This document shows, one piece after another, positions 20,156-64,000 of a stretch of 64,000 bases of DNA. The first letter of the stretch is position 1, and each line of letters opens with the position of its first letter. Position numbers and translations under genes: made by a program. Source of the stretch: Steromphala cineraria (taxonomy: Eukaryota > Mollusca > Gastropoda > Trochida > Trochidae); contig OU744725.1 of assembly GCA_916613615.1 (NCBI GenBank), positions 54,627,575 to 54,691,574 on the forward strand. Direction: 5' to 3'. The notes under the pieces were generated by a model, which worked only from the letters and a program-made list of their open reading frames with translations, did not search any database and had not been told where the DNA came from.

Positions 20156-20159
20156 TAAT

Positions 20160-23555: not shown

Positions 23556-23604
23556 TTGTCCGTTAAGTCTCTGTGTACGTTAACCTTCTCCTCTTTCTTT
23601 TTCT

Positions 23605-27446: not shown

Positions 27447-27460
27447 TTGCCCCCCTCTTA
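27447..27460 (-). other. Element A polypurine tract
   Basis: TAAGAGGGGGGCAA on the element strand directly before the 3' LTR; the plus-strand DNA primer site of LTR elements. Confidence 0.85.
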
Positions 27461-33134: not shown

Positions 33135-33157
33135 ATGGGTCTCGTTGGCAGCCGAAA

Positions 33158-34138: not shown

Positions 34139-34836
34139 ATTGTAAGTCTCACCGAGCTACAAACTAACAGGACAAGTAAGATGTCGGGCTACATCAGACG
34201 GACTTGATGACAATGTTTATGTGGGATGTATACATTCAATCAATAGGAACCCCGATAAGAAAACAAACCAACGTATCGGGAACCAACGTACAAAAGTACA
34301 AGAATACTGTCCTATCACGATTGCGAACTGACCAACTGCAAAGGGAACACCTAACTGACTACAGACAAACTTATGGACCACGGACTGGACCAATCAAACT
34401 GTCAAATACCCTATGTGCTTATCAAATACTAATTAAATATAACAAAGCCTATTTCTGTTATTCTATATCTAACAAACTAACCTACTCTACCAAATTATAA
34501 GACTAACCGTTAACCTAACCAGACTATATCTATATCTATAAACTAAAGGCTAATACTGCATGGTGCCAAATATTAATGTTAACAAAAAGAAACTATGAAG
34601 GTATTTACTCCGCACTCTTAAAACAAAAGAAATAATACCTTTCCGTCAGTCACAATTCATCTAACTTACTCTACCTAATCTACCTACCTACTTAACTAAA
34701 TATCTAAACTAATCTTACCTAACCTAACATATCTAAATAAATACGAGAAGTCTGTTCTGAAAGTTCCAAACTACCTGGTCTCGTACACACAACTTTCGTC
34801 CTTAAATACGACGAATTATCCTGCCGACGAAGCCAA
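34139..34836 (-). other. Element A 5' leader with primer-binding site
   Basis: About 700 bp of AT-rich leader between the 5' LTR and gag. At its start (34835-34818) an 18-nt TGG-led stretch, TGGCTTCGTCGGCAGGAT, is complementary to what would be the 3' end of a tRNA-Ser (T-stem CCTGC, CGACGAA acceptor, G73, CCA). First-strand synthesis is therefore probably primed by tRNA-Ser. That tRNA gene is not in the window. Confidence 0.7.
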
Positions 34837-36675
34837 TGTGAGAAAATATCTTATTCTTACCCGCCCCAGGAACGTAAATTCCTGATCTCACATAAAGGTT
34901 TAACCTTAGACTTGTGTGTGTGAGTACCGGGGAGCTGTCACCTCCGAACAAACTTTCGCATGCAAAATAAGGCAACAACACAAGAAAAATCTGCTCTACA
35001 TATTTATTCAATACATGAAATGTGTCAGGAGTCAAAGTTTCAATAAACCCTTCCAGTGGTTCAACGGTCGAAACAGTGTAACAAAGCTCTTCACGTATAC
35101 TCAATATCTGAATCAAACCCACAATAGGGCTATAAATACTTCAGACTTTCAAGGAAAGTATAGCCATTCAACAAGTCAAAAGCTTCTCAGCAAACGTGCA
35201 CCTAATGATTATCAATGAGACTGGTCCCATATTTCCAAAGTGTACTTTCAAACTGTAGGCGTATCGTGACAAACTAACTTGAAGTTATAATTGTCAACAA
35301 GGTGTGTTACATGTTTCAAAATCACACTGACAAGAGGTAAGTTATCTTGGCAACCTTGTACAAGATGATGATGATTATAAACCAGACGTGTTACATGTTT
35401 CAAAAATATATTGTCAGAATGACAAAACGGTACAAAGCTATGTTTACCAGTGAAAACATGTTACTTGTTTCAAAAGTATATTGTCAGTATGACAAAACGG
35501 AACAAAGCTATGATTACCAATGAAAACATGTTACTTGTCTCAAAACATACTGTCAGGACGTAAGTGTACCTCGGCACAATTGTACAAAATCAAGTTTCAG
35601 AACGTAATCGTATCTTGGCAAACGTGTACAAAGTCTAGGGTTCTCAACAAAACATGTTACATGTCTCAAGAGGTGCTACGAAGAATGGGAAACGGATGCC
35701 AAACAAACTGATACGAAATTATGATTATGTCTACGACATGTCATGGGTCTAGAAAGGTTCTATGAAAATGTGGAATGTGGTTATTACTAGGACATGATAT
35801 TTGTCTCGAAAGGTGCTGTGAGGTTATGAAACGTGACTATTACTAGTATATGTTATAAGTCTTAAATGATTCTATGAAGATGTGAAATGTGCTTATTACT
35901 AGGACACGTTATGTATCTCAAAAGATTCTGTGAAGATGTGAAATGTAATTATTACTAAGACACGTTATGTATCTCAAAAGATTCTATGAAGATGTGAAAT
36001 GTGATTATTACTAAGACACGTTATATGTGTCTCGAGAAGTGCTATGAAAATGTGGAAGGCGAAACGGGAAAGAAATATACTACTCTTGTCAAGAGGGGAG
36101 AGCGTTCAGCCCAAAAGGCCTGCACAAACAAGTGTAACAATCACTAGAACATGAAAACAATTCATATCAAATCAAGATGGCGGACCAAAAACGCACATGG
36201 TCCGAAAGCATGGCTAACACAAAACTAAGCGACTAATGCATATTCAAAATCATTTTACCTAGCAAACAATTACATGACTAATTTTAGAAAACGATAAACT
36301 AGAAGATATGACTGACAGAACTATCTCAAGGTTACCTGACCAGAAAATGAGTGCATAACGGAGTAACCGGAGTAACGAACTTCATGGTGGCCCCATCTCA
36401 AACACGTGTATCAGTCCAACAGCAGTGCCTGCCTTATATAGGCGAGTCAGCCCTATTACAGCCTTCCTACGCTCGCACAATATAGTCCAGCCAAACACAA
36501 CGGCCACAGTCGTCACGGAATCAGCCGAAGTATTCCTAATGTTCCACATCCATCCGTGTTGCGCAAGTGCAACCGGAAGCCACCCGACTGTCAACAAACC
36601 AGACACTTCCGTCCCGAAGGCAACACACAGGCATCAGCCCACTGCGAGCACATAGGTAAAACACTGTTCATTACA
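34837..36675 (-). repeat. Element A 5' LTR
   Basis: Same length (1839 bp) as the copy at 25608-27446, no indels seen. Of about eight differences noted, at least seven are transitions and some look like CpG decay. Confidence 0.95.
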
Positions 36676-38082: not shown

Positions 38083-39858
38083 TGTAGCAGGTACTTAGTC
38101 AAAGGAAAACCAAGACTGCTGGGCGTAGTTCGATGACTGTTTATTCCCAACTCATGTATGAGGACATGTAAACAAATGTGTTTGTCACCCTGCAACAATA
38201 CATAAAATAATAAGTTCATTTGAATAATAATAAGACACTTGATTCATAAATCATCATTGCAGGAATACATCATAAAGAGTTGATACAATATGCACATCAC
38301 AATTGATTTCATTATGCAAACACACATTCAATGCATGGTTACCAAGATATGATATACTTATACAGCATAGTTAACCATTCAATACAAACACCATATACAT
38401 TACAACATAATATGAATATACTATGCATGATTTGATATGGGTATTACATAATTGCTTTACATACATCAACATGATTGTTACACATGATGATAATAGAAAT
38501 AATACATAAGTATGATACATGAATATGAAAATAGATTTAATCTAACCATTACCTACCAAGTATATGGTACTTAGGTGAGTTTGTTGGGTTGAAGGAGATG
38601 TACCAGATTATGTCATCATGGCGGTCCTAAAAGTGTAGATAAACTAACCATAAGTAATTGATTAATTGAACCTACCAAATATATGATGATAAATAATACT
38701 TTAATGAGATTACAAGTTACATAAGTATTTCCACAATACATATGCATTAGAATTAAATATACCTTTGATATAAAAACCAACTGATATACAATATCAGTAG
38801 TATATGTACAAGAATGCCATAATGCAATACTGCAGATAGAGTATTTAGTTTAAACATGCCATAGCACATAATTACATGTACTATTCCAATAATGTATATA
38901 CATGAAGGTGAAGTAAAAGATTGTGATAATGATAAGTACATGTGTATACTTATAGAAATGCACACTAGAAATATATACAAATATGGGATAAAATACTAGC
39001 AAAGACTAATCATGAAATAGCAATTACCCTAGCTTCAAGAATGATTGAATAAATGATAAGCCTATGATTATTTATATGATAGATATTACACTATCATATA
39101 CCTACACATAAGATTGCACCATTATATGGATATAGCTGCACTTACCTGTGCATTTATAATATATATGAGTATGATAATATATACAACATTACACATTTGT
39201 GTAATACACTAGATTAAAACCTTCACATCATGATTACTTGATGTGTATAAAATATAGGTATGATAACTGACAATAATTACATGTGCCACATTATAGATAT
39301 ATGAAAATAGCCTAAACATTTAGCAATGTATAAACTACAATAAGATACATTCATACAATCATACACACAGTAGCCTAGCCCTATTCCCTATTAATATGAT
39401 AGTTAAAGAATATTGCCTTAATGATAATAATATTTATGTGAAATACTAATTATTTAACTAACCTGTGTTCAATAGTTTGAAGACGAAGAAAGGAGACAGT
39501 CTGTCTTCTGTCAAATGTCTTGCTGTCAAAAGTCGTGCTCTTCATACAAAATGCAATAATGCAGTGCACTGAGTTTATAGTGCAGGTTACCTTTATAGAT
39601 TTTAAGAGCATGCAAAGTGAGAAGTAAGCTTACCTAACAATAGAGAACAAAGGATAGAAAGCTGAAGTGGCTAGGAGGTCAGAGTAAAGAACAATAGAGA
39701 GACAGCAAGATACATGATTACAAGCTTGCAATGTACAAGCTCTCAGTTTAGACTCAGGGCTGCTACACATAAAACACCTGAAATAAAATGAAACATTAGT
39801 ACATGAATATTTACAATTAAAACACATAAAAATACAATATATTACACTCTGCCACACA
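38083..39858 (-). repeat. Element B 3' LTR
   Basis: 1776 bp, very AT-rich, starting TGTAGCAGG and ending GCCACACA on the + strand. A 75-codon frame inside is identical in both LTRs but has no coding signature. Confidence 0.93.
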
Positions 39859-39870
39859 CTTCCCCCCACC
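39859..39870 (-). other. Element B polypurine tract
   Basis: GGTGGGGGGAAG on the element strand immediately before the 3' LTR. Confidence 0.8.
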
Positions 39871-40065
39871 GACAAAATGACGTCCTCGTCATGTCCGTTT
39901 GCCAGTGATGAGATCCACAATTGCTTCCGTGGCCTTGTTGCTGATGCCCGCAACAACTCCTGAAGATAGTAATGAGCTGAGGTATTCAGCTCGCATCCTC
40001 CAGTCTGGCTCACCATGTGCTGCCATAGTATATTCTCCTGACGTCTGCCACTTAGGTTTGGTCCT

Positions 40066-40704
40066 CTATCGTGCTGACCTTCTTGGCAATGGCACGACTC
40101 TTTGCCTGTCCTCCATCCTTGCAGGTGAAGGAATTGGCACGTCCTGCCCTCCAACAGCACCCTCCTCCTCCTCGTCTATAGTGATGTCCTCATCCAGCTC
40201 AGGCTCTTGAGCAGGAATAGCATCATCATCTATAGGACCATCCTCCTCTCTGGCAGCTTCTGACACTTCCTCCAGGTCAGCATCCGTCGTAACTTCAGCC
40301 TCTTCTTCTCCAGCTGGCCTATCAGATGTGTCAGCATCTGAAACTGGAGGTCCTGGATCTGTGACAGGAATCCATCTGTCTTCTTCCTCAGGTTCCTGGC
40401 TCTCAGTATCATCAATCAGATCCTTAGGAATTGGTGGTGCTTGAGCTCTAGATTTCCTGGGACGTGGTTTTGGAACTGGAGGTTCAGTCACAGGAAGAAA
40501 TCCAATAGGAAGGAGTAGATTCCTATGAAGCATCCTGACTTTTCCTTCTCTAGATTCTTTCCTCACACAATACACTGGAATTGCTGGGTTAGGTTGTCGT
40601 AGCACAAAGTAGATGTCTTCTTCCCACTTGTTGGCGATCTTGTGCTTACCGTCGAAAGCGACTATCTTGACAAGGACCTGGCCTGTAGGATATGGTGAAG
40701 TCAT
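40066..40704 (-). pseudogene. Element B integrase C-terminal tail, cut off from its core
   Basis: The start (QVLVKIVAFDGKHKIANKWE) corresponds to the region after the DDE core in Gypsy integrases, followed by a proline-rich and then acidic tail and a short basic end. The core is absent and this frame differs from that of RNase H. The methionine at 40704 is therefore not a natural start: the frame is the downstream side of a deletion. Confidence 0.8.
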
Positions 40705-43030
40705 ACGCTGACAAAGCAGCTAGCCATCTGTGTCCTGTTGCATCTAACTTGGCGCTTGTGAGAACATACGTGAGAGGGTTATTATCCGTTAGTACTGAGA
40801 ATTGATGTCCATAGAGATAATCGTGGAATTTTTCAGTTACTGCCCACTTCAAACAGAGAAATTCCAATTTGTGAGCTGAATAATTCTTCTCAGACTTACT
40901 GAGTCCTCGACTGGCGTAGGCTATGACCTGTGGTTTTCCTTCCTGGTACTGGTAGAGTACAGCGCCTAGTCCATGAGTGCTTGCGTCTGTATGGAGCTCA
41001 AAAGGCTGAGAGTAATCAACATACCCTAAGACAGGAGGTGACGTTAGATGTTCCTTTATCTTCTGGAATGCTGATTCCTGTTGAGGTCCCCATATCCACT
41101 CTACCTTCTGCTTAGTCTTGGATCTCTTGTTCGTCTTGGGCATTAGATCACTGAGTGGTCGAGCTATCTTCGAGAAATCCTTTACGAACTTACGATAGTA
41201 GCCCGCAAAGCCTAGGAATTTCCTTACTTCCTCTGGTGTCTTGGGAGTTGGCCAGTCAGAGATCTTTTCTACTTTATCCGGGTCTGCCTCTATTCCATCC
41301 TCTGAAACTATGTATCCTACATATCTTACTCTGTTCTTGAAAAACTTGCACTTTTTGGGCGCCAATTTGAGTCCAGATTCTCTGAGTCGTTGTAGAACAA
41401 GCTCTAGTCTTTCCAGATGTTCCTCATATGTTCTTGAAAAAATGATGACATCATCCAAGTATATGAGACAGACTTTCAAGTGCAATCCAGCAAGACACTG
41501 TTCCATGAGGCGTTGGTACGTGGCGGGAGCGTTACACAGTCCGAACGGCATACGGTTGAATTCCCAGAATCCTAGTGGACCAACTGTAAAGGCTGTTCTT
41601 TCTTTGTGTTCCTCTAGGAGCTCTACCTGGTGATAACCGGACTTCATATCTAGTACCGAGAAGTACTTCATACCGCCGAGATAATCTAGTAGCTCATCGA
41701 TCCTTGGAAGCGCATAATTATCCTTTAACGTCTGATTGTTGAGCTGGCGATAATCTATGCACATGCGCAGTTTCCCATCCCGCTTGCGTACAAGAACAAC
41801 ATTTGATGACCAGGGACTGTGTGAAGGACGAATGATTCCAGCTGACAGTAGTTGACGAAGATGGCTGTGAACTTCATCAAGCATGGAAGGTGGTATTCTG
41901 CGATGACGTTGCTTAAAGGGTATATCACTTGTAAGGTCTATCCTGTGCTTCACTGCACTGCTGTGGCCTAAGTCCTCATCACCCTTCGAGAAGATGTCCT
42001 TGAACTTGAGAATGACCTTGACTCCGAGTTCCAAATCCTCCTGAGTGAGATGATCCTGGTTTATGTCAACTTTCTCAAGTAGGTTCTTTTCATCCTCAGT
42101 TGGTTGTGGACACATTCCTTGGAATAAGACAGGTTGAAGCTCACAAATAAGGGACTTGGGTTTTACCACTATGGTCTGAGTTGTCACATTCGAGAGGTGA
42201 ACATCCACTATTCCTGGTTTCTCCCAATCAAACTCCATGATTGTTGGTGCTATATCAAGATCCTGGTGTATCGTAGCATTATCCGTTTGCTGTAGGAAAG
42301 CACATGCTCTAGGAAAGTTGATTGGCTGAGTGACTTGTCCCTTGATGATGACTTGGCTGTTAGCTGGTATAATAACATTCTCTTTCTCACAACATTTTAC
42401 GAGTCCAATCTTTCCTTTGTTCCGTAGAAGCTCCTTCTCCCTGATTACCATTGTCCTGAATGAGAGATACCATGGTGTATGGAGGGCTGCCTTCTGTAGA
42501 AATCTTGTTCCATGGCTTTTCTTGCATCCATCCAAAAGATGTTCCAGGATATTTGTTCCAATCAATACAGGCACCTTAGAGTTGTAGTGAGTATCCGGGG
42601 AGACAAGAAAAATACAAGGTGTTCCTGAAGCCTTAGCAATTCCGTATGTTTCCATGTGTGCTACTATGTATCCTGAATAAGGCAGAGACTCTCCTCCAGC
42701 ACATTCTATGTTGAGCATATCCTCAAGTGGTTCGATGGTTATGTGAGTCAGGTGCTGATCATAGAAGGACTTGGATATAACTGACACTGTAGCTCCTGTA
42801 TCCAGTAGTGCTCTTGTCTGTACTCCTTCGATGTTTACCTCAACCTCATTAGATGACCCGACTAATCCATCTGGGATCTGTCTCTTGTCTTGGGGGCGCT
42901 GGTGATGCTGACCTATGAATGGCCCCTTCCCATAGGTCTCCTGTAGTTTAAAGCTCTCCCTCTTCTTGAGTGGTCCAGGCGCACTGTGCAGGAATAACGC
43001 ATGTGTCCAACTTGTCCACATCTCCAGCAT
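40646..43030 (-). CDS. Element B protease-RT-RNase H polyprotein (794 aa), truncated after RNase H
   Basis: Protease LLDTGATVSVISKSF keeps the catalytic DTG. RT has MCIDYRQLNNQTL, FGLCNAPATYQRLM and YLDDVIIFS; RNase H has HTDASTHGLGAVLYQ and SAYDFTISYRPG. The frame then leaves the family at RPG and stops after a short unrelated tail, because about 1.1-1.2 kb of integrase are deleted. It overlaps gag by 118 nt in another frame, so expression by frameshifting is likely and the true N-terminus is the gag-pol junction. Confidence 0.88.
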   Translation of the reverse strand: MLEMWTSWTHALFLHSAPGPLKKRESFKLQETYGKGPFIGQHHQRPQDKRQIPDGLVGSSNEVEVNIEGVQTRALLDTGATVSVISKSFYDQHLTHITIEPLEDMLNIECAGGESLPYSGYIVAHMETYGIAKASGTPCIFLVSPDTHYNSKVPVLIGTNILEHLLDGCKKSHGTRFLQKAALHTPWYLSFRTMVIREKELLRNKGKIGLVKCCEKENVIIPANSQVIIKGQVTQPINFPRACAFLQQTDNATIHQDLDIAPTIMEFDWEKPGIVDVHLSNVTTQTIVVKPKSLICELQPVLFQGMCPQPTEDEKNLLEKVDINQDHLTQEDLELGVKVILKFKDIFSKGDEDLGHSSAVKHRIDLTSDIPFKQRHRRIPPSMLDEVHSHLRQLLSAGIIRPSHSPWSSNVVLVRKRDGKLRMCIDYRQLNNQTLKDNYALPRIDELLDYLGGMKYFSVLDMKSGYHQVELLEEHKERTAFTVGPLGFWEFNRMPFGLCNAPATYQRLMEQCLAGLHLKVCLIYLDDVIIFSRTYEEHLERLELVLQRLRESGLKLAPKKCKFFKNRVRYVGYIVSEDGIEADPDKVEKISDWPTPKTPEEVRKFLGFAGYYRKFVKDFSKIARPLSDLMPKTNKRSKTKQKVEWIWGPQQESAFQKIKEHLTSPPVLGYVDYSQPFELHTDASTHGLGAVLYQYQEGKPQVIAYASRGLSKSEKNYSAHKLEFLCLKWAVTEKFHDYLYGHQFSVLTDNNPLTYVLTSAKLDATGHRWLAALSAYDFTISYRPGPCQDSRFRR

Positions 43031-43959
43031 GTGGGTCCCATGGCATATGCTCCCTCGTCATATCCATGTCCAGCAGAAGCTTGCTCATTCCATTCCGGAT
43101 AGAAAACTTGTCCTCGACCTTGTCCTTGTCCCTGACCTTGATCTTGATATCCTTGGCCTTGATATCCTTGATATCCTTGATCGCTCTTCCAATGAGGTAC
43201 TCCTTGATAAGATTGTCTTGGTGGCTGTGAAGGACCTGTCGTTGATAACTTCATGTTTGATACCTCTGTTGTCAACTTGTTAAGCATTGCCTTGACCTCT
43301 GACATCTCCTTTCTCCATTCAGGTTCAGGTGTGGTGGTCATCTTAGCTGTTGCTTGAGTCCTCGCCTTAGCTGTTGCCTGGCCGAACTGGTCATTCTCTA
43401 TCTCGCGTAGAGCTTCCATCAGTCCATCAAAATCCTGGATAGCATCAAACTTGTGGCCTGAAATATTCTTGAGGGCTGGCCTGAGTCCTGTCCATAACAT
43501 GCTCCTGAGCATCTCCTCAGTATCATAGCACGTCTGTGGGCTGTCCTGTATAGCGTGCGACAGCAGTTCCTCCAGTCGACATCCCCACTGTGACACGTCT
43601 TCATCGTCCCTTTGCTTGGCACTGTAAAACTGGGCCATCCTAGTTTCTTTCCTCTCAGCAATCCCGAACACTATCTTCATTTTCCTCAGGAGAGCACTGA
43701 TATCGCTTCCAGGTCTCATGTTCACAGCGATCTTGGCTGCCTCTCCTTTAAGTGAGTCCCTGATAGCTTGCTCCTTGGTGTCCTGGGTGTATGAATGAGA
43801 GTCCAGCAAGGCATCAACATGGTACTTCCACACGTCGAAAGGGGTATCCTTGCCCTGTCTGTTTCCACTGAACGCAGGAATCCTAGGTGAGTGTTGGTAC
43901 ACCACTGTACTAGGCTTAGTGTCCACAGGTCTCTCTGAGTCTCTGCTCACAATCCTCAC
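42913..43959 (-). CDS. Element B gag (about 348 aa), PNMA-like capsid and zinc knuckle
   Basis: The capsid region FDVWKYHVDALLDSHSYT, then SLKGEAAKIAVNMRPGSDIS, resembles the Gypsy-type gag that gave rise to vertebrate PNMA proteins. A Gln/Gly/Tyr-rich low-complexity segment (QGYQGQGYQDQGQGQGQGRG) precedes one zinc knuckle, CWRCGQVGHMRYSC. No ATG is seen near the 5' end of the open frame (43959 is a GTG), so the start is unresolved. Confidence 0.85.
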   Translation of the reverse strand: MRIVSRDSERPVDTKPSTVVYQHSPRIPAFSGNRQGKDTPFDVWKYHVDALLDSHSYTQDTKEQAIRDSLKGEAAKIAVNMRPGSDISALLRKMKIVFGIAERKETRMAQFYSAKQRDDEDVSQWGCRLEELLSHAIQDSPQTCYDTEEMLRSMLWTGLRPALKNISGHKFDAIQDFDGLMEALREIENDQFGQATAKARTQATAKMTTTPEPEWRKEMSEVKAMLNKLTTEVSNMKLSTTGPSQPPRQSYQGVPHWKSDQGYQGYQGQGYQDQGQGQGQGRGQVFYPEWNEQASAGHGYDEGAYAMGPTCWRCGQVGHMRYSCTVRLDHSRRGRALNYRRPMGRGHS

Positions 43960-44916
43960 TTTCGTTTCTTATGTTATTTATACAACAAAATAGCACTAAT
44001 TACCCTGAAATAAAGATATTGGTTAGCTACATGACATGAATTAAACACACATATAAGCAAAAATGGAAATGTACGTGTAGCAGAGTTATATAACAAAACA
44101 AAACCTGGAATTGAAAGCAAAATTAGGTTTTACATTGTAATAATACTGTACACATGAATAATACGAATGGACATATTTAGAATGAGGAGTAGAGAAAGGA
44201 CAAAGGAAATATGATAATAATTAAAGAAAATTAGTGCTAGAAACTTACACCTGGAAAATCAAGAAATATTAGGACAACATTATGGTGGCAAGGTGTAGTG
44301 CATTGCAATATATTGGTCAATCAGTCATCGTCCGTTTGTCACAAGAGCAGATGAAAGAAACACAGGTTATACCTATCCCTACATATTATGCAAAGTTTAT
44401 GGTATTACCTATATAACACTCAATCACTCAACACTCACTCACGCAACACACACCAAATGCTACATACTTATGCTAGGATTGAAAAAGTAATGATATGGAA
44501 ATGGAAGCTTAACTGGTAAGAAATGCTAAAGTGTGCAATAAACTAAACTATGGCATGTTATGGCATTAAATAGATGATTATATAAAGATACTAATTAACT
44601 AACCTTAACTTATGTTAGTAACTAATACTTAACTAAAACTATTACATGATGAATGACAATTTGAACAATTGAAATAAACTAAACTAAAGCCGGCAACTAA
44701 CTAACTATTACTTAACCATGGTTTTAAAGTTGTGAGCTCAAAAAAAAATGTTATGTCAGTATGGAATGGTTGGTACTCAACACAGTTGTGCGTCACATGT
44801 TGTCCAAGAAATCCGGATCACAGTCTCTCGAGAGTCACAAGGATAGGTGTGGATCACAATGGCCGTCTGGTGTCACTCCTATGTAGATTCAGTCATCCTC
44901 ACTGGGGGCTCCATTT
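43960..44916 (-). other. Element B 5' leader
   Basis: About 950 bp, AT-rich, no frame. Next to the LTR (44913 downward) the strand reads TGGAGCCCCCAGTGAGG, a TGG-led candidate primer-binding site; I could not match it to a tRNA family. Confidence 0.55.
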
Positions 44917-46692
44917 TGTAGCAGGCACTTAGTCAAAGGAAAACCAAGACTGCTGGGCGTAGTTCGATGACTGTTTATTCCCAACTCATGTATGAGGACA
45001 TGTAAACAAATGTGTTTGTCACCCTGCAACAATACATAAAATAATAAGTTCATTTGAATAATAATAAGACACTTGATTCATAAATCATCATTGCAGGAAT
45101 ACATCATAAAGAGTTGATACAATATGCACATCACAATTGATTTCATTATGCAAACACACATTCAATGCATGGTTACCAAGATATGATATACTTATACAGC
45201 ATAGTTAACCATTCAATACAAACACCATATACATTACAACATAATATGAATATACTATGCATGATTTGATATGGGTATTACATAATTGCTTTACATACAT
45301 CAACATGATTGTTACACATGATGATAATAGAAATAATACATAAGTATGATACATGAATATGAAAATAGATTTAATCTAACCATTACCTACCAAGTATATG
45401 GTACTTAGGTGAGTTTGTTGGGTTGAAGGAGATGTACCAGATTATGTCATCATGGCGGTCCTAAAAGTGTAGATAAACTAACCATAAGTAATTGATTAAT
45501 TGAACCTACCAAATATATGATGATAAATAATACTTTAATGAGATTACAAGTTACATAAGTATTTCCACAATACATATGCATTAGAATTAAATATACCTTT
45601 GATATAAAAACCAACTGATATACAATATCAGTAGTATATGTACAAGAATGCCATAATGCAATACTGCAGATAGAGTATTTAGTTTAAACATGCCATAGCA
45701 CATAATTACATGTACTATTCCAATAATGTATATACATGAAGGTGAAGTAAAAGATTGTGATAATGATAAGTACATGTGTATACTTATAGAAATGCACACT
45801 AGAAATATATACAAATATGGGATAAAATACTAGCAAAGACTAATCATGAAATAGCAATTACCCTAGCTTCAAGAATGATTGAATAAATGATAAGCCTATG
45901 ATTATTTATATGATAGATATTACACTATCATATACCTACACATAAGATTGCACCATTATATGGATATAGCTGCACTTACCTGTGCATTTATAATATATAT
46001 GAGTATGATAATATATACAACATTACACATTTGTGTAATACACTAGATTAAAACCTTCACATCATGATTACTTGATGTGTATAAAATATAGGTATGATAA
46101 CTGACAATAATTACATGTGCCACATTATAGATATATGAAAATAGCCTAAACATTTAGCAATGTATAAACTACAATAAGATACATTCATACAATCATACAC
46201 ACAGAAGCCTAGCCCTATTCCCTATTAATATGATAGTTAAAGAATATTGCCTTAATGATAATAATATTTATGTGAAATACTAATTATTTAACTAACCTGT
46301 GTTCAATAGTTTGAAGACGAAGAAAGGAGACAGTCTGTCTTCTGTCAAATGTCTTCCTGTCAAAAGTCGTGCTCTTCATACAAAATGCAATAATGCAGTG
46401 CACTGAGTTTATAGTGCAGGTTACCTTTATAGATTCTAAGAGCATGCAAAGTGAGAAGTAAGCTTACCTAACAATAGAGAACAAAGGATAGAAAGCTGAA
46501 GTGGCTAGGAGGTCAGAGTAAAGAACAATAGAGAGACAGCAAGATACATGATTACAAGCTTGCAATGTACAAGCTCTCAGTTTAGACTCAGGGCTGCTAC
46601 ACATAAAACACCTGAAATAAAATGAAACATTAGTACATGAATATTTACAATTAAAACACATAAAAATACAATATATTACACTCTGCCACACA
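44917..46692 (-). repeat. Element B 5' LTR
   Basis: 1776 bp, same length as its partner; differences seen at four single bases. Confidence 0.93.
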
Positions 46693-50889: not shown

Positions 50890-51116
50890 AAGACACTGAA
50901 GTCTGGACTTATAAAGAAACACTATATTGAAAAGCATATCGACCTTATAGTTTGCAAAGGTACTACCTTATATATATTTACTTCTCTAGCTGTGTTATTG
51001 ATTCAATATAAACATGTATGTATGTGTAAGTGAATGGGAATGGTAGGCGCTCTAAAATTGAGAAAGAGAGTTTGATGTCAACCAAAACTTTGATATGAAG
51101 AGAGAAGAGAAAAAGA

Positions 51117-51170
51117 GGTTCTGGCGAGGTTCGAACTCGCGACCTTCTGCGTGTGAAGCAGACGTGATAA
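51117..51170 (-). pseudogene. tRNA-Val(CAC) with 5' deletion
   Basis: A 24-bp deletion between two TAA triplets removes the first 18-20 nt (acceptor 5' strand and most of the A box). It explains the short 839-bp unit. Confidence 0.92.
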
Positions 51171-52273: not shown

Positions 52274-52519
52274 CTTGCATGTCTAGCACTTCTAGTATTG
52301 AGTAGCAATTCGTAGGGTCAAGTCAGTGTTCGTTATCAACCACTGTATGGAGGAATACAGAGATGCATCTATGAAATAATGCACAGCAGAAATTTGAAGT
52401 TTCCATGTAATTGACAAAACATATATTTTAAAGCCTATACAATGACAATGGATTGGGCATTTGACATGTGCATTCTGTAAGGTCAAAAAGGATGGTTTGC
52501 TCTAGATAGTAAAAATGAA

Positions 52520-52570
52520 GGTTCTGGCGAGGTTCGAACTCGCGACCTTCTGCGTGTAAAGCAGACGTGA
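52520..52570 (-). pseudogene. tRNA-Val(TAC) 3' fragment at the LINE-2 poly(A) junction
   Basis: The last 51 nt of the gene (from nucleotide 22) remain and then 14 T residues of the LINE tail begin. The A box is lost. Bases 52527-52570 are repeated perfectly at 58147-58190. Confidence 0.95.
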
Positions 52571-52682
52571 TTTTTTTTTTTTTTATTCAATAAAGACAAG
52601 TACAGTTATATACATATCAACAAGATTCAACAAAAATAAAATATCACAGTTTGAGTTTGATTGTTAAATTGTTATTCATAAT

Positions 52683-55600
52683 TTATGTAAGAGGTGGTTT
52701 TAATAAACATTTACCACCATCCACTTGCAGAAATGATGTACACATTACAAATTTTTTAATGAAGTTAACACTTTGATTTTTAACTTCATAGTGGAAGTGG
52801 ATGCAGCATATATAATTATACAGCAGCTTTTTGAAAAGGAAGCACACATTGATTACCCGGTTTGATTGTATTGCAACATTTCTTCTTTTGAAAATAGCTA
52901 ATCTATATACAGACAGTAGTAAATCAATAAAAGAGTTTCTACCAACCTTTGCTTTTGGAAGGTACCCTAAAACAAGCCATATACATAATTCCACTTTTGA
53001 ATATCCCATTTCTTGACATTCTTCTTCAAAAACAAAATTAATTATTTTGATGAGCTCCCTTAACTTGGAGCAATTGACAAACATATGCATTATATCTTCA
53101 CTTTCTTCCCGACAAACTGGGCACACATCATCATCGGTGAGACCGATTCTACATAATTTCTCTTTTGAAAAGATTAATTGATGAGCAACTTTAAAATCCA
53201 ATTCTCTGCATTCAGATACATTGTCAGCTCTAAATACATTACCCCAAACAGTACACCAATCAATGCTATGTACAACATCTTCCCATTTTCTGCATGCTGA
53301 TGGGGGCTCAAAGATTTTACTCACAAAATGGTTATAACAGTTTTTTACTGTTAGCTGCTCAATTGAATAAGTATCGCTTTCGTTACAACAATACTTGACA
53401 ATTCTTTTGACATCATTCCTTGGAATAGTTGTTAGAATTTGTTTTCTCCACTCCTTAGGTATAGAGATCATCACAACCTTGTACATGTCCTTTATCAAAT
53501 CCACTGATTTGTCTGGGTATTCCCCCAGCACAATTTCCACCACACTAGTAACTGATAAAAACTTAGGAATGACCTCAAAACAAATATCTGATATACAAAC
53601 AATACCAGAATGAATGAAGCAATCAAAGTCTAACACCTTGTTATTAAAAACAATATTTGGGTTGTGAAAAAGAGGCTGACATAAAATCTCTTCAATTGTT
53701 TCTGGTGTGGCCCTCTTCTTTGCATTTAGTCTGTCCCATGCAAGCAGTATTTCCATGCAAAGGGGTGGTAACAAACCAAGCTTGGCTTCATCATATGAGA
53801 TACAGAGAATGTTTCGGTTAAGGTTCATTCCATTGTACTTTGCAAAAAAGTACCACAGTACATTTCCCCAAACACAGTCGCTTCCAGAGTCCACCAAAAA
53901 CCGAAGAAGTTTTAACCGCATGGCCATTTTCTTCAAATTTATGTCCGGAATACTTAAACCACCAACTTCAAATTTTCCTACAGTTGTACATGATTTAATA
54001 CCAACTGAACCTCTTGGCCAGATAAAGTTCCTAAATGCCATCTTAAGCTTCACTTCATATTTTTCTGGCAAAGGTTGAACATATGCCAAATACAACAGCC
54101 TTGAAACAATTAGAGAATTGAGAACAACTGATTTACCTTGAAAGGTCAGTTCTCTCTTACTCCATAAACCCAATAAAGATTTTATTCTAGACACCTTTTT
54201 AGACCAATTAAGTGATTCACATAAAGTCTTATTAGGCCCAAGATAGACTCCCAAAACTTCAACTGCCTCCTTCTCCACTTTAACAGGCACCTTTAAACAA
54301 ATATCTTGGTATCTTGCTGCTCCTATAAGTAGAACCTCCGACTTTGTCATGTTGACCTTGGATCCAGACCCCTTACAATAGACATCAACTGCCTTAAATG
54401 TCTCCTCTACTCCTTCTTTACTTCCCACAGTAGCAGTAGTGTCATCAGCATGCTGGTATAGAAGAGAATGACAACCCTGATTGATGGTTATACTGTAAGG
54501 ATTCAAGCTAGCCTTAAATATGCGATTAAGGGGTTCAGCCACCAGGCAATATAACATAGGAGATATTGGACATCATTGCCTGACTGATCTTGTGAGAGGA
54601 AAGTAGCTAGACAAATGACCATTGCACTTAACAGTGCTTTTAATATCTTTATATAACAACTGAATCAAAGAAACAAAATTTTCACCAAAACCAAGCCTAT
54701 CTAAAACCCTGAATATAAACTCATGTGAAACTCTGTCGAAAGCTTTCTCTTGGTCTAGCTTTATTACATACCCTTCTTCTTGGTTATCCTCCACCCAGTC
54801 AATAACTGCTGAAACATTCAACACATTGTCATGTATAGACCTTCCAGGCACTGTTGAAGACTGTTCTGAAGAGATAACCCAAGGCAACACCTTCTTTAAG
54901 CGATTAGCAAGCATCTTGGAAAGTATTTTATAGTCCACACACAACAAAGAAATGGGTCGATAGTTTTTTAACTCAAGCTTATCACCCTTCTTCTTGTAAA
55001 ATAGACTGATAACACCCTTTTTCATTGATCTGGACACCTCCCCACTCTCCTGAATACTCAAAACAACTTTATGGAAAAGAGGACCAATTAAATCCCAAAA
55101 CTTCCGATAAAACTCAACAGTAATTCCATCGATTCCCGGGGATTTATTTCTCTTCATGCCCTTTAATGCATCACTTAGTTCTTTCATAGTAATTTGTGCA
55201 TCACATTCGTTCTTATCACATTCCTCAATTCTATGTACAAGCACATCCAGCAACTTGTCTTGGCACTCCATGTCCACTTCCTCAGCAGTGTACAAATTGG
55301 AATAAAAATCGTAGCAACAATCCAAAATGTCCTTTGTATCCGTGGCCTTAGTTATTCCATTATTCAAGGCTCTGATGGCATTTGCTTCTTGTTTTGACTT
55401 CTCCAAATTCAAGAAAAATGATGAGCATTTATCTGACTCAAGAGCCCATTCACATTTTGATCGTAGAATAGCCCCTTTACATCTTTTGTCTTCGTGCTCT
55501 TGTAACTGAAGTTCCAGCTCCACGATGTGAGTGTAATCATAATCAACAGTTCTTGAAGCCCTTCCATATTCACTCCGAAGAGACTTTTGTATATGAAGAA

Positions 55601-56561
55601 TTTCGTGCATATCCTTTCTTCTCGTGTCTTTAGCAAAGTTAATAGTTATCCTTTTGATCTTTGCCTTGAAATTGTCCCACCACATGAGGGGTTCTAGATC
55701 AAAAAGTGGACATTCCTTATCTCGTGAAATAAAAGACCTTATGGTACTTACAAAATCAGCATCATTCAGTAGAGAGTTATTCAAAATCCAGACCCCTGGG
55801 CCTCTCTCGACTCTACTGAAATCCACTTTTAGGAAAACCATGTTATGATCACTTATGGTTGTATATTTTATATAGCAATTATACACATAAACAAGCATAC
55901 AGCGTGACACAAGAATAAAGTCTATCCTAGATTGTTTAAGGCAACCTTGATTCATTTGTTGCCTTGTGAACTCTCTTTTCTCAGGATTCCGATATCTCCA
56001 AATGTCACATAAACTATTTCTGGATATGAAGTTATTTAAAGCTTCACAACCTCGGGAACTGAAGCTCTTTACAGAGGCACTCTTATCTAAAGATGGGTCC
56101 AACAGTTCATTAAAATCGCCAATTAAAAAGGTGTAAGGGTTGGTTATCAACGTTTCCAATAACGTCAGTAGAGCAAGTCTCTCCTCCACTCTATTTGGCA
56201 TATACACATTTATCACATCACACGTCCCTTCATTATGCTTTACACTGATCATCAAAATGCGGCCATTAGCATCTCGGTGCTTAATATCAATAACATATGA
56301 CATACCTCTGGGTACAAGAATCGCCACCCCCTTTCTATGTTCATTTTTACAATTTGCATAAACAATTTCTCCATCCCATAAGTGTTTATACTGTTCAATA
56401 AAAACATCATCCCAAAATGTCTCTTGGAGACATATAATATTAGCATGAGAATCAATTGCAGACTGAAACACATTTTTCATTTTACATATATCTCTTAATC
56501 CATTTACGTTCCATGTCAGAATGAACATGACAATAAAAACAAACCTGATATTATCCATCAT
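52683..56561 (-). pseudogene. LINE-2 ORF2: endonuclease-RT, one in-frame stop
   Basis: One frame of about 1290 codons broken only by TGA at 54573-54575, at the glycine of the RT motif that follows SVRQ. The likely ATG at 56561 overlaps the end of ORF1 by 11 nt. N-terminal apurinic-type endonuclease: LTWNVNGLRD, CLQETFWDD, INVYMPN, GDFNELLD. RT: NKSPGIDGITVEFY, NYRPISLLCVDYKILSK, VIKLDQEKAFDRV, catalytic YQHADDTTATV. Near the C-terminus CPVCREESEDIMHMFVNC is the CX2CX8HX4C zinc motif found in L1/Tx1 ORF2. ORF2 nicks the target and reverse transcribes from it. Confidence 0.92.
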
Positions 56562-57945
56562 TAATGTCAATATTGTCTAACAGCTTCTCCCTCACAATAT
56601 TTCTCATTTTCTTGAATGTCTTTTCAGAAACGCCGGTAAGACGTTTCATACCTCTTCTTCCATGGAACCTGAACTTTTTCATTGAAGAGGTAATATTCGC
56701 CTCTTCATTTTCTTCAATCTGATTGTTCATTAGTTCCTCTTCATTCTGTACATCCGTCGTACTTTCCCCATAGGCTTCATCCAAGACAAGGGTATCCCCT
56801 CCTTTATCCTCCACGATTTTGTTTCCATCACCTTGATGTGTCTCCTCCATCCCACTTCCCTCAGACAAAACCTTATCCATCTTAGGGTTATTTGTTGATA
56901 CATCCCGGGGTTCTTCAAAGAAAAAGCTAAGTCCACCCACAGGTGGCTTTACAGGTGAAACATCATCTTCCTCAATGTCGATATCATTCTCACCATTCTC
57001 ACTCTCTGTACCATCATTTGTGAACTTTGCCTTCTCCCCCCTTTGGAGTGTCACTTGTTCTTCACCTTTATCAAGTGGTACAGTATCTTTATTTGTATCC
57101 ATGATTTTGTCCTTTGTAAGTCCTTTCCCTTGGTCTTGGAAAAGTTTACGACCATCTTCACGTGGTTTCAGAGACGGGAAGTCCTCTTCATCAAGATCCA
57201 AAACATGTTCACCCTTCTCACTCTCAGAGCCAAAATCTGCTGGCTGGTCCATTACATAACAGTGACAATACAGTTTATGACAGTCTAAACAACGTTTTGT
57301 TTGACACGACGTCTGTATGTGTCCTTTCCTATTGCATCTTAGGCACACGACAGATGGACAGTCTTTAATCAGGTGTTCAGTACTGTGACAAAAGTTACAG
57401 GTTTTAATCATGTTATCATGACGAACATAGAATGACATAGGGCCTTCTTTGGTTTTGAATTTTATCTTGTATGGAAGAGATACAAAACCCGGTAATTTCT
57501 TTACTAAGCAGATCCTCGTACCATCAGCTACACCATTTGATCCTCTGTAATAATGTCTTCTTACAGAAATAACTTCCACATCAAAATTTTCCAAGGCTTT
57601 GGTGATGTCATCATCGCTAATATACGTCAATAGATGCATGAGGGAAACGACTAGTTCGTTTGTTCTCTTCAACGATCTGACATCAAACGACTCACCCAAG
57701 ACAGACAACCCATCTGTCACTAAATTCACCATTTCATCCTTCCTCAAAGTTATTTCATATTCATCCGTTCCTATAGGCACGATTCCAAGCACGGAATCCT
57801 CCCCACAGATATCCTCTACCGCTTCACACAAGTCTTTACTTTTAACACTTCTAATGTTGCCTACACTTACTCTCACTGACGAGTCTCTTCTAAACACTCG
57901 AGTCACGATCTTCCCGCCGTCAGCCATTATGACTGATGTAAACAA
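56551..57945 (-). CDS. LINE-2 ORF1, zinc-knuckle protein (464 aa, intact)
   Basis: Same plan as LINE-1 ORF1: RRM-like LVVSLMHLLTYISDDD, then CNFCHSTEHLIKDC, CLRCNRKGHIQTSC and CLDCHKLYCHC. A longer acidic middle and a basic end (KKFRFHGRRGMKRL) follow. No break. Probably binds the element RNA and may help recognise the tRNA target; the latter is inference. Confidence 0.9.
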   Translation of the reverse strand: MFTSVIMADGGKIVTRVFRRDSSVRVSVGNIRSVKSKDLCEAVEDICGEDSVLGIVPIGTDEYEITLRKDEMVNLVTDGLSVLGESFDVRSLKRTNELVVSLMHLLTYISDDDITKALENFDVEVISVRRHYYRGSNGVADGTRICLVKKLPGFVSLPYKIKFKTKEGPMSFYVRHDNMIKTCNFCHSTEHLIKDCPSVVCLRCNRKGHIQTSCQTKRCLDCHKLYCHCYVMDQPADFGSESEKGEHVLDLDEEDFPSLKPREDGRKLFQDQGKGLTKDKIMDTNKDTVPLDKGEEQVTLQRGEKAKFTNDGTESENGENDIDIEEDDVSPVKPPVGGLSFFFEEPRDVSTNNPKMDKVLSEGSGMEETHQGDGNKIVEDKGGDTLVLDEAYGESTTDVQNEEELMNNQIEENEEANITSSMKKFRFHGRRGMKRLTGVSEKTFKKMRNIVREKLLDNIDINDG

Positions 57946-58139
57946 TCGTCAATTATCCACTAAATACAGTTCAATATCGTTCAAAAATACCTCCAGAACG
58001 CTTGACAGCATACCAAGGCATGCCACGCACTTCCGAGAGCAAATACAGCACTGAATCCACTCTAGAAATACGTAATAAACTGCAAATCACACGACGACAC
58101 AATGAAAACAACCATCCACCATGCATCCAAGGGAGGCAA

Positions 58140-58211
58140 CCTTCTAGCGAGGTTCGAACTCGCGACCTTCTGCGTGTAAAGCAGACGTGATAACCACTAC
58201 ACCACAGAACC
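58140..58211 (-). pseudogene. tRNA-Val(TAC) at the LINE-2 5' junction, acceptor 3' strand replaced
   Basis: Nucleotides 1-65 are intact, including A box, anticodon loop TTTACAC and complete T-arm with B box. The last seven are LINE-2 sequence (TAGAAGG), which can still form about five of seven acceptor pairs. The normal TTTTT terminator is now 5.6 kb away; the first TTTT is about 35 nt into the LINE. Confidence 0.9.
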
Positions 58212-59618: not shown

Positions 59619-59864
59619 CTTGCATGTCTAGCACTTCTAGTATTGAGTAGCAATTCGTAGGGTCAAGTCAGTGTTCGTTATCAACCACTGTATGGAGGAA
59701 TACAGAGATGCATCTATGAAATAATGCACAGCAGAAATTTGAAGTTTCCATGTAATTGACAAAACATATATTTTAAAGCCTATACAATGACAATGGATTG
59801 GGCATTTGACATGTGCATTCTGTAAGGTCAAAAAGGATGGTTTGCTCTAGATAGTAAAAATGAA

Positions 59865-59915
59865 GGTTCTGGCGAGGTTCGAACTCGCGACCTTCTGCGT
59901 GTAAAGCAGACGTGA
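59865..59915 (-). pseudogene. tRNA-Val(TAC) 3' fragment at the LINE-3 poly(A) junction
   Basis: Exactly the same 51 nt as at LINE-2 remain (from nucleotide 22 on), followed by 15 T residues of the LINE-3 tail. The 5' half of the gene is not found beyond the element. Confidence 0.95.
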
Positions 59916-62900
59916 TTTTTTTTTTTTTTTCTTTCATAATGATTTATTCACAGAAGTATATACAGGTTAAGATGAAGGTGGAAAATATACAGTTTTAAAA
60001 CATGTGTCCTTACATGGACATACACACAACCAGTTGAATTACTATTTACAGATTTTCAACACAGTGGATATTTAAGAATAATTTCCTCATTATTGCCAAT
60101 TGAAATGATGTTTAAAGGAACTACATATTTATAAATGAATAACGTAGATTGATTGTTTTTGCGATAATGAAACCAAAGCAGTTTGAAATAATGTTTTACA
60201 CTGTTTTTGAAAAAATTTAACAAATTAAGGGATTTATTTTGTAATGAGGAAATAGCTCTTCTTTTATAAACACACAATCTGTAGATTGATAAAAGCATAT
60301 TTATACAATCATAGCTTTCAGGTGCTTGGGTGGATTGAAATCCAAACATGAGCCAAGATACTAAACTGTTAAAGGAGTATCCTTTGTCACGAAATACATT
60401 CGTGAAAATATCCCGAAAAATATTGATGGTGTCATACAGCTCATCACAAAACACGAACATGTGAAACATATTTTCTTCTTCAGCTGTACATACTGGACAC
60501 AAATCAGTGTCAGATTTACCATATTTATACATTTTATGATTGGTATAAACAATATTATGGCAAATTTTAAAATCAAGGTTTCTTTGCTCAGCTGATTTAT
60601 CATTAAGAAAAACAGATTTCCAAACTTTAGACCAATTTATGTCTAGAGCATAATTATCCCAAAAGTCAATTGAAGTTGGTTGAATAAAATTTTTGGAGAC
60701 AAAAAATTAATAGCAGAATTTTACATTTAATTTATGGGAATGTATGATATCATTATCTGTGATAATGGAAACTTCTTTTAAAGCTTTAGTAATTATTGAA
60801 TGTGAGCAAATATATTGAAACCAGTCGCATGGGAGCGATTTTAAAATAATGAAATATGCACTCTTTATGTAGGAAAGAGAAACATCAAATTCATGATTTT
60901 AAATAATTTCTGAAATGGCAGAAGCCTTTAAAAATCCTGGTACAACTTCATAGCAAATATCTGACAATGTGGTGATACCACTATCAATGAAAAATTTGAA
61001 ATAAAGCACCTTCCCTTGATACTGCACGTGTGGATTGTGAAACAAAGGTTGATGCATGATGAGCTCGGGATTCGTCACGAGCTCGCGTTGAGAGCACGTG
61101 ATTTCGTCCCATGCACGTAGAACTTCTGCAAAGAAAGCGTTTATCTCTTTGAGGTTGACCTCATTATAAACAATGGAGAAAATATTCTCTCTGAGTCCCA
61201 TATTTGAATATTTTTGAAAAAGAACATAGCAGAATGTTTCCATAGTGCTACATAATTAGAATCAAACAGTTTATTTACAACTTTTAACCGAAAAGAATGT
61301 ATTTTGAATTTCAAACTAGGGAGAGATAAACCACCTTCTATGAGTGTCCTATTGTTGTTGTGCGTTTTATGAGTACTGTTTTACCTGACCAGATGAAATT
61401 GGAAATACAAGTCTCAAAATCCTTTATAAACCATTCTGGAACAGGTAAAACATATACACTATACCATAATTTTGATAACATGAAAGTATTTACAACAATT
61501 GATTTGCCTTGAAGTGTCAGTTGTCTCTGCGACCATAATCCAAGCAAAGATTTAATTTTACTTAACTTAGATTTCCAATTTTTGCTTTCACAAGCGGCTT
61601 TATCAGGACCCAGATAAATCCCAAGAATTTTTAAACAATCATATTTGACTGTTATCGGAAAATCAAAATTAGAAACAGAGATTTTATTAGATCTCCCCAA
61701 GACCAACACTTCAGACTTTGTTAAATTAATTTTAGATCCGGTGGCTGAGCAATAATAATCTAATGAATCAAAGGTAGCAGTAATTGATTGTTGATTGCTG
61801 ACAGTCACCGTAGCATCATCAGCATGTTGATACAACAATGATTTGTGATTAACATCAATAGAATTGGAGTAATGGCTGGGTTAGCTTTGATAAGCTGATT
61901 AAGTGATTGACTGACAATAACAAAAAGTAAGCTGCTAAGTGGGTCACCTTGACGAACCGACCTAGTTACAGGGAAATACGGCGTGAGATGTCCATTAATT
62001 TTAACACTACTAAGTAAACCTGAATACAGTATTTGAATCCATGAGATAAAATAATCACCAAAATTCAATTTCTCAAGGACCTTTATAATAAAGGGTTGAG
62101 AAACTCGATCAAAGGCCTTTTCTTGATCAATTGATATTATATAAGCTTCATCCAAATCATCAGACAAATCAATTACATCTCTTAAAGAATGAATATTGTC
62201 AGCAATATCACGTCCAGGAATGCCACAAGTTTGATCAGAGGAGATAATTGTTTCCATAACATGCTTCAAGCGTGAAGCGAGGACTTTTGAAATTAATTTG
62301 CAATCAACATTTAAAAGGGAAATAGGTCTAAAGTTTTTAATGTCCTTTTTGTCTCCTCTCTTTTTATAAAATAAACTGATTACACCTTTTTTCATTGAAC
62401 GTGATAATTGCTGTTCAACAAAAACATTATTTACAATATGAAAAAAAATAGGTTTTAAAACATCCCAAAAATGTACATAAAATTCGACAGTGAGTCCGTC
62501 ATTGCCTGGACTTTTACGACGCTTCATTGCGTGCGGAGCTGTTGTAAGCTCGTCTTCACTGATGTTTTCATCCAGCACAATCTTATCTTCCTCTGAGAGG
62601 ACATCTTTTAATAAAAGTAATAATTCATTTTGCTTATCGATATCTAAATCTTCTGCTTTATATAAATCGGAATAAAATTTGAAGGCGTGATCTAAAATAT
62701 CTTCAGTTTTATTTGTAATACCTTTATCTGTAATAAGTTCTTTAATACAATTTGATTCTTGTTTCGCCTTCTCCGAATTCAAAAAGAAGGAAGTATGCTT
62801 ATCTGATTCTAAGGCCCATTGAGCTTTAGATCTTAAGATTGCATCATCACATTTACTTTTTTCAAAAATTGTTAATTCAGCTTCTAAATTTTGAATGAGG

Positions 62901-63498
62901 GATATATCTCGTGATGGATTTCTGGAAAGTTTATCATATTCTAATCTTAACCTACGCTGTAAATCAAAGTGCTGTGCTTTTTCTGCTTTTCTCTTTTTAC
63001 AAGAGAAATAAATACTAGATTTTTTAAGCTTATATTTTAAGTTATCCCACCATAACAGTGGTTCCGATAAATACAATGGGCATGATAAACTGTCATTGAT
63101 TAAATCTTTGATGATATTTGAATATACAGGATCTGACAGGATTTGATTGTTTATGACCCACATGCCAGGTCCACGTTCTACTTTAGAAAAGTCAAATTTT
63201 ACAAAATTAATGGAGTGGTCGCTTAGTGAGGAATACTGAATATAGGCATGTGTAGCAAACGGAATTAGTGATTTTGAAATTAGAATGAAGTCAATTCGAC
63301 TTTGTTTACACACTCTAGTAAATTCCCTCCTGTCGGGATTTCTGTATCTCCAAATATCACAGAGATTGTAATCATTAATAATTTTACGTAATTTATAACT
63401 GCTGTTATAACTAAATGCTTTAAGATTGACATTTCTATCAAGAAAAACATCCAATAATTCATTAAAGTCACCGGGGCCAATGATATGGTCTCCTGTCA
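59916..63498 (-). mobile_element. LINE-3: Tx1-type retrotransposon, 5' truncated, same family as LINE-1
   Basis: The poly(A) end is in tRNA-Val(TAC) at the same base as LINE-2. The element lacks ORF1 and the start of the endonuclease; homology with LINE-1 stops near 63498, and unrelated promoter-like DNA follows with no tRNA remnant. Either truncation during insertion was followed by a rearrangement, or the 5' side was deleted with the array edge. Confidence 0.88.
60056..63454 (-). pseudogene. LINE-3 ORF2, several frameshifts
   Basis: Open pieces 63454-61805, 61838-61338, 61243-60899 and 60532-60056 read in order through the endonuclease end, RT (IPGRDIADN, IISIDQEKAFDRV, SVRQGDPLS, YQHADDATVTV) and C-terminal zinc motif (CPVCTAEEENMFHMFVFC). 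Frame changes lie near 61850 and 61330; between 60899 and 60532 the frame is kept but stops occur. Six codons present in LINE-1 after RREFTR are absent. Clearly inactive. Confidence 0.88.
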
Positions 63499-63733
63499 GT
63501 AGGGAGTTCGTTTGGACCTACCTGCTCAGCGCCACGACCCCACAGTAAATGATTTTGCTTCGGCTGTGACGTCACATCGAAGTTCCGAGAAATGTTCGTA
63601 ATCTCACGTGTTGCACGTGCGAATTGACATGACTCCGACTATAAAAGCACGCGACCAAAAAATCGGTTGTCTTTACGGAAATTTTTCATATTTTGTGGGA
63701 GGATCCTCTGACAGCATCAAACAGACAAATATG
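63499..63733 (+). promoter_or_regulatory. Promoter and first exon of an unidentified gene
   Basis: TGACGTCA (a full CRE) at 63567-63574, two CACGTG boxes at 63605-63610 and 63614-63619, and TATAAAAG at 63640-63647 are properly ordered. A start near 63670 would give a short leader and an ATG at 63730 that runs after four bases into GTAAGT, a strong splice donor at 63734. So exon 1 would carry only ATG plus one base. What the gene encodes lies beyond the window. Confidence 0.6.
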
Positions 63734-64000
63734 AGTAAGTTGATTTTTTACTTCATTAGTTTCTGCGAATATGAAGAATTAGGGAATTGTTATTGGTCAC
63801 CTTATAATGATGTGTGCATACATTAGCATATATTACTACATTTTATCATATCACATATATCTCCGTTACGCGATTCCAAGACTTCTTTTTTAAACTGTGC
63901 ATACATGTATATCAATGTTTGACATTTTGTGCAATTTCTATATTTTATACTTGCGATCCTGTTCGTAAATTGCATAGGATTTAGTCGTTTGCAAGTCACT
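63734..64000 (+). other. Presumed first intron
   Basis: AT-rich DNA after the GTAAGT donor; no acceptor or coding exon is recognised before the window ends. Confidence 0.45.

Follow-up and report, generated by a model that had tools for sequence, protein, structure and literature searches.

The organization of a 64,000-nucleotide stretch of the Steromphala cineraria genome (contig OU744725.1, positions 54,627,575 to 54,691,574; hereafter "the window") raises a question: when a long interspersed nuclear element (LINE) splits a tRNA-Val(TAC) gene, is it aimed at tRNA-Val, at tRNA genes in general, or at nothing in particular? The LINE, called copy B here, divides the gene after nucleotide 20/21 and has an A-run as its 3' end; the target is duplicated around it over 45 bp without mismatch, or over 44 bp if an A/T that is indistinguishable from the tail is left out. 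The first-pass annotation of this DNA had described such an insertion in the D-arm, with a perfect 44-bp duplication that is indeed present, and had proposed that the element is specific for tRNA-Val. We conclude instead, with a probability of roughly 0.88, that copy B is a site-specific LINE with two open reading frames (ORFs) and an apurinic/apyrimidinic (APE)-type endonuclease, and that its lineage targets tRNA genes as a class.

The genome searches covered the assembly from which the window comes (1.27 Gb in 281 contigs). Copies were picked by similarity to the LINE, with queries devoid of tRNA sequence, and only the best-scoring candidates were listed; because selection was by LINE sequence, the flanks did not bias the choice of copies. 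Junctions were read for LINEs of the B, C and C' subfamilies and of a third group, C being represented by a second LINE in the window. The script required an A-run at the junction, and A-runs stand at all 53 informative junctions. The search with B (best 40 of 219 candidates scored) returned close copies outside tRNA-Val, flanked by Gly-GCC, Leu-AAG and Leu-TAG genes and, as judged by the 5' junction only, by Arg/His-like and Arg-CCT genes; copies L012 and L018, which have no 3' end and a tRNA on the 5' side only, are outside the 53. A query with the 3' end of B gave seven matches, namely six 3'-complete copies and one remnant of another window element, LINE A. The six lie in one tRNA-Val gene, one tRNA-Gly gene, two tRNA-Leu genes and, twice, a tRNA-Gly-like repeat. 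The proposed specificity for tRNA-Val is contradicted by the five that lie elsewhere, at the homologous nucleotide of other tRNA genes or of the repeat.

The other subfamilies behave in the same way. The search with C gave 42 matches (best 40 of 102 candidates scored), mostly from subfamilies at ~98% and ~77% identity. The 3' end is reached by 34 of these, including the window copy, and the remaining 33 were fetched, the eight matches without a 3' end being left out; in all 33, the A-tail runs directly into the Gly-like repeat or into the 3' part of a tRNA. A protein search with the reverse transcriptase (RT) end of B, in which 73 matches were listed (best 71 of 5541 candidates scored), contributed 14 further 3' ends; apart from L109, which has no tail, these were informative, and all 13 lie in tRNA genes. 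The fetched set does not include the copy at C43:34.996 Mb, with a match as far as residue 612 and, in the C search, 158 unmatched bases at the end. Stop-free frames of 1292–1312 aa remain open in 27 of the 73 listed matches. A search with P0150 (31–33% identity) gave 36 places (best 36 of 16719 candidates), all of them also among the RT-end matches. Open frames of 40686 and 7092 aa at G000:C43:55359186 and C43:42574036 are perhaps artefacts of masked or repetitive sequence. Intron-bearing genes that ARAGORN mislabelled (Lys-TTT as Leu, Leu-CAA as Thr, Arg-CCT as Thr/Ser) were renamed by reading the sequence.

The 53 informative 3' junctions fall without exception in tRNA genes (49) or in the tRNA-Gly-like repeat (4), which upholds site-specific insertion in the D-arm. 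The targets comprise 26 types for 15 amino acids, and the LINE always has the orientation of the tRNA. For most targets, the empty site was taken from intact neighbouring array genes; in our compilation of targets, the Gln entry derives partly from the junction itself (the near intact gene is Gln-CTG), for Val-CAC one base was supplied by its own 5' copy, and the Leu-TAA entry contains a single erroneous base that lies upstream of the part compared. A cut immediately 5' of A21, where the A box has its 3' edge and the D-loop ends, is compatible with 45 of the 53 junctions (44 with T|A and one, Asp, with C|A), and 52 lie within 2 nt of this place. Among 23 aligned sites (tRNA-Asp excluded), conservation is highest for A at +0 (1.73 bits) and for T at -1 (1.56 bits), with G at -3 coming next. 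Copy B alone cannot separate two ways of writing its nick; we prefer GCAGACGTGAT/AACC, a T/A step, because T|A fits 44 of the 53 junctions. The first nick had originally been placed on the plus strand and written GTGA/TAAC: the junction does fit target-primed insertion that begins with a nick in this strand, but the cut is better written as the T/A step.

Because almost the same nucleotide is used in many tRNA genes, their shared promoter-like part seems to be the address. We lean toward the view that the internal promoter for RNA polymerase III (Pol III), at the edge of its A box, is a general address, such that a single kind of endonuclease can use virtually any tRNA gene, and even broken tRNA-like repeats in which the boxes persist, and cuts with almost one-nucleotide precision. 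The spacing between the cut and the 5' part of the A box changes by one or two bases with D-loop length, which suggests a coarse address combined with a local choice of T/A. Several subfamilies share this habit of insertion, with protein identities of 36–50% between B and C.

The 5' side of the insertions is loose and the 3' side nearly fixed, since the duplications vary in length and some 5' sides lie off the target. Exact duplications measure 3 (Thr, two mutually copied loci), 3, 7, 7, 10, 11, 11, 12, 13, 15, 19, 19 and 44 bp; inexact ones, read by eye, measure ~25 bp with one mismatch (Arg-TCG) and ~45 bp with two (Leu-AAG). Several copies have deletions instead, among them the Leu-CAA copy, which lacks 5 nt of its target. 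Thus, of the expectation that junctions at nucleotides 21/22 would come with duplications of 40–50 bp, the 3' position near A21 survives; a regular 44-bp duplication is ruled out by the range of 3 to ~45 bp and by the deletions. Among 20 fetched 5' sides of the C/C' group, 13 begin in the target tRNA or repeat, four in the array spacer and three outside the stretch. The idea that Pol III drives LINE B from the duplicated upstream A and B boxes was not adopted, as the LINE has a TTTT run just inside its 5' end.

Several observations weigh against so tidy a picture. Eight of the 53 junctions are off A21, by +2 in six cases, by -1 in one and by -3 in one; three of the +2 offsets are the whole set of tRNA-Lys junctions and the three others are in Met, Pro and the Gly-like repeat, while the -3 offset is one of two tRNA-Asp junctions. 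Val-CAC (L049) fits A21 only with a base of its own 5' copy and is at +2 relative to intact neighbours. A21 is itself indistinguishable from the tail and, because the two look alike, the exact phosphate is deduced rather than read. Junctions inside one array may include duplicates, as in the case of L025 and L026, each a copy of the other. A 5' side that begins in array spacer (L074, L080, L087 and L090) implies that the 5' part of the tRNA was lost or recombined. One relative, L001, gave no tRNA match, its contig being without a LINE 3' end. Lastly, the nick, the order in which the strands would be broken and any role of TFIIIC are read from the junctions only.

With these reservations, the junctions are consistent with the following course of events. 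The ORF2 endonuclease would nick the template strand of the tRNA gene at the T/A step opposite nucleotides 20/21, and the freed 3' T would pair with the A-tail and prime first-strand cDNA. The break in the other strand would have no strict position, so that either duplications of 3 to ~45 bp or deletions result. Coarse targeting may come from the A-box region, read either by the element's proteins or by way of bound TFIIIC, with fine placement provided by the endonuclease's preference for T/A. Tandem tRNA arrays would make such insertions survivable. The first-pass suggestion that a multicopy tRNA serves as target is supported.

How might the address be read? There is close to an even chance that a protein of the element reads the A-box DNA (TRGYNNARYGG..T|A) directly and nicks its T/A step. 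The precision of the position in nucleotides favours this explanation, and the endonucleases of Tx1L and R1 reportedly read their single targets. Target-specific non-LTR (long terminal repeat) elements in general are held to recognise DNA directly (PMC3706591, PMC8869645; here and below, papers are cited from the parts of their text accessible to us). When 542,330 positions were scored with a matrix of the region, 20 unmasked hits equalled or exceeded the median score of the targets; a smaller set without L003–L010 listed 17 hits, all 17 being tRNA or partial tRNA. We therefore dropped for strong targets the argument that sequence alone is insufficient, and kept it for weak ones only. The weak targets (Gly, Met, Pro and Gly-like) score low, and 2,790 of the 542,330 positions (~0.5%) reach the 10th-percentile score; the matrix is also ungapped, such that differences in D-loop length blur the scores.

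A natural test of what is recognised is provided by contig C2 (45.45 Mb; L015, L016 and L017), where a ~140-bp tandem repeat resembling tRNA-Gly has received at least four LINE insertions. The repeat has no match to the tRNA model, and its consensus has no cloverleaf fold. Among 20 full-length units, an A-box-like sequence is retained in 15 and GTTCGA in 17. Of the four junctions read, three agree with A21 and the fourth is offset by +2. The insertions into this repeat therefore favour the linear promoter sequence, or factors bound to it, over tRNA folding.

Such factors are central to a second explanation, which we hold tentatively: ORF1 or ORF2 protein binds TFIIIC/TFIIIB or Pol III on active tRNA genes, and the endonuclease takes the nearest T/A. 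The targets have little in common beyond the promoter boxes, and the box-keeping repeat just described, unmatched by the tRNA model, has its four insertions no more than 2 nt from the common cut site. The TRE elements of Dictyostelium are likewise thought to use Pol III factors (PMC5006619). However, TRE, Ty1 and Ty3 go outside the gene, whereas the position here is fixed and inside it, and bound TFIIIC might shield the A box. Direct reading and recruitment by these factors can be tested against each other, since 26 natural target types and many open ORF2 frames are in hand.

Recognition of a folded tRNA, or of a cruciform in the tRNA gene, is unlikely; it would account for a cut whose structural position stays the same between cloverleaves with longer and shorter D-loops, but the Gly-like repeat is cut at or near that place without a cloverleaf. 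A LINE specific for tRNA-Val with a 44-bp duplication is very improbable: the window does hold three tRNA-Val(TAC) insertions, and six of the 53 junctions are in tRNA-Val, but the other 47, along with five of the six B-family copies, are outside it, and duplication length is variable. We give as little credence to an absence of targeting, in which a few chance insertions were spread by amplification of tRNA arrays or LINE–tRNA chimeric transcripts were integrated elsewhere; some same-array copies are duplicates (L025/L026), but this explanation contends with 26 target types, several divergent subfamilies, target duplications, and array flanks on either side of most copies that were examined.

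To which group of LINEs does the lineage belong? ORF2 of B has APE and RT domains (Pfam PF03372 and PF00078), and zf-CCHC_2 was detected on ORF1 at E 4.8e-5 and 23.5 bits, under the 27-bit cut-off of Pfam. An ORF1 with CCHC zinc knuckles is a feature of the Tx1 clade; another, sequence-specific insertion, is found here at 53 of 53 junctions. The best solved-structure match of the endonuclease (EN)-RT part is human L1 ORF2p (E 6e-60), and LTX (2v0r), which carries a Tx1 hairpin, scores above the native L1 EN. In a midpoint-rooted tree, B, C, C' and A share a group with seven database proteins (11 members, support 100/99); the third copy group, from the RT-end protein search, is absent from it. 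Rows source-named TX1 or YTX2, with a U2-inserted relative, are on the opposite side of the root (support 89/91). The element is an L1-type APE-LINE, probably of the Tx1 clade. The L1/Tx1 type first suggested for it is supported, the name Tx1 being likely rather than proven. RT motif C is HADD in B (ORF2 54557–52683), in C and C', and in the majority of close relatives; relatives further away have YADD. If the A-box edge is indeed a general address, the database relatives P0121–P0126 and P0143, nested between B and C in the tree, are predicted to share it.

The U2-inserted relative, L002 (35% identity), is a Keno-like LINE with its A-tail joined to U2 snRNA; it lies at 2400–3700 of a contig labelled as a metagenome-assembled genome (MAG) of a gammaproteobacterial symbiont, which looks eukaryotic despite this label. 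L001, at 45% identity to B, is on a contig labelled as a Flavobacteriaceae MAG; since it is a LINE related to B, it is probably eukaryotic contamination. A search of viral contigs for the junction pattern found none, and in the ORF2 alignment relatives account for none of 71 stretches in viral contigs and two of 141 in genome contigs.

Dewa and Mutsu are placed in the Tx1 clade, the NeSL clade is of the restriction-like-endonuclease type, and human L1 is dispersed and not known to target tRNA genes. Precedents (NeSL-related elements, Dewa, Keno, Mutsu, TRE and Dada) are described in PMC4640811, PMC8869645, PMC3706591, PMC5006619, PMC5911963, PMC10294476 and PMC3747384. Like the B lineage, Keno is an APE-type LINE inside a multicopy small RNA gene (U2 snRNA; PMC4640811), but it has one gene family as its target, and the U2-inserted L002 has YADD where the B lineage has HADD; identity with Keno is ruled out by the absence of U2 among the 53 junctions, all tRNA or tRNA-like. 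Dewa (tRNA-Leu spacer) and Mutsu (5S rRNA) are also target-specific non-LTR elements of small RNA gene arrays (PMC3706591), but of one array or gene, not within many tRNA species. NeSL-1_TV (tRNA-Pro), LIN15_SM (tRNA-Arg) and LIN25_SM (tRNA-Glu) share specificity for tRNA genes, but are NeSL-related families with one tRNA species each (PMC4640811); an element of NeSL type, with a restriction-like endonuclease and no APE, is ruled out by the APE domain in B. TRE5/TRE3 of Dictyostelium and NLTR-A/B are non-LTR elements whose target is likewise the whole class of tRNA genes, and TRE has an APE endonuclease, but they insert ~50 bp upstream, ~100 bp downstream or ~4 bp upstream (PMC5006619), and insertion of the TRE type, at a distance outside the gene, is ruled out by the position inside the gene near nucleotide 21. 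Dada-tV and other Dada elements do enter tRNA genes, sometimes of more than one species, but they are DNA transposons with a transposase and use the anticodon arm (PMC8869645). Human L1 ORF2p shares with B the EN-RT order and the logic of a T/A nick (L1 TTTTT/AA; PMC8565326).

In the accessible parts of these papers, known non-LTR elements show either targeting of tRNA genes as a class or a nearly fixed nucleotide, not both: R2, Keno, Mutsu and the NeSL-related elements use a fixed base in one gene family, while TRE5/TRE3 are general for tRNA genes but looser and outside the gene. Our full-text literature search, which extended neither to subscription papers nor to Repbase, where prior notice is possible, found no LINE inside many tRNA species at one site. 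With its entry into a large, dispersed gene class of many copies, such a nuclease–RT is also relevant to targeted gene insertion. The host's tRNA genes would be damaged again and again, a burden that tandem arrays may absorb.

Within the window, 31 tRNA-Val genes were called, and two more insertions into tRNA-Val(TAC), LINEs C and A, are present that the first-pass annotation did not mention (Table 1). The common site of A, B and C is not one duplicated insertion, since A (29–47% protein identity to B) and C are distant from B in protein. A was assigned to the C/C' group because of its 5' end and its placement in the tree. The 24-bp deletion in a tRNA-Val(CAC) gene may be the scar of an aborted insertion, because one of its ends is at the nick site.

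Table 1. Features of the window that bear on LINE insertion into tRNA-Val genes
Feature	Position	Strand	Remarks
LINE copy B	52572-58146	minus	Same strand as tRNA genes; length 5.57 kb; 5' end right, A-rich 3' end left; 58142-58146 possibly extra 5' junction bases
ORF1 of B	56551-57945	minus	464 aa; CCHC zinc-knuckle, below Pfam cut-off
ORF2 of B	52683-56570	minus	APE endonuclease, reverse transcriptase, zf-RVT; one in-frame stop 54573-54575
tRNA-Val(TAC) nt 1-65	58147-58211	minus	5' side of insertion B; holds right duplication copy 58147-58191
tRNA-Val(TAC) nt 21/22-73	52519-52571	minus	3' side of insertion B; holds left duplication copy 52527-52571
Tandem tRNA-Val array	24813-64000	minus	AAC, CAC and TAC genes; unit ~860 bp; local target
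LINE C, second subfamily	59918-64000	minus	Passes right edge of window; interrupted further right; ORF2 match 60062-63505
tRNA-Val(TAC) nt 21-73	59864-59917	minus	3' junction of C (59917/59918), same nucleotide as B
LINE A, decayed C/C' group relative	18724-24812	minus	ORF1 23866-24582; EN-RT 21993-23528; 3' end decayed, remnants 20192-20323 and 18724-18806
tRNA-Val(TAC) 5' part, about nt 1-52	24813-24866	minus	5' junction of A (24812/24813)
tRNA-Val(CAC) gene with 24-bp deletion	51115-51170	minus	One deletion end at A21/T22; TTA microhomology

Two LTR retrotransposons also lie between tRNA genes of the array, at about 25608–36087 and 38083–45216; their paired 300-bp stretches are 100% alike, one of the two elements has a 56-bp tandem repeat in both ends, and the frames look Ty3/gypsy-like. 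A frame at 12508–13620 is similar to carbohydrate sulfotransferase 11 (47% to Haliotis) and was the sole window gene with a match above threshold.

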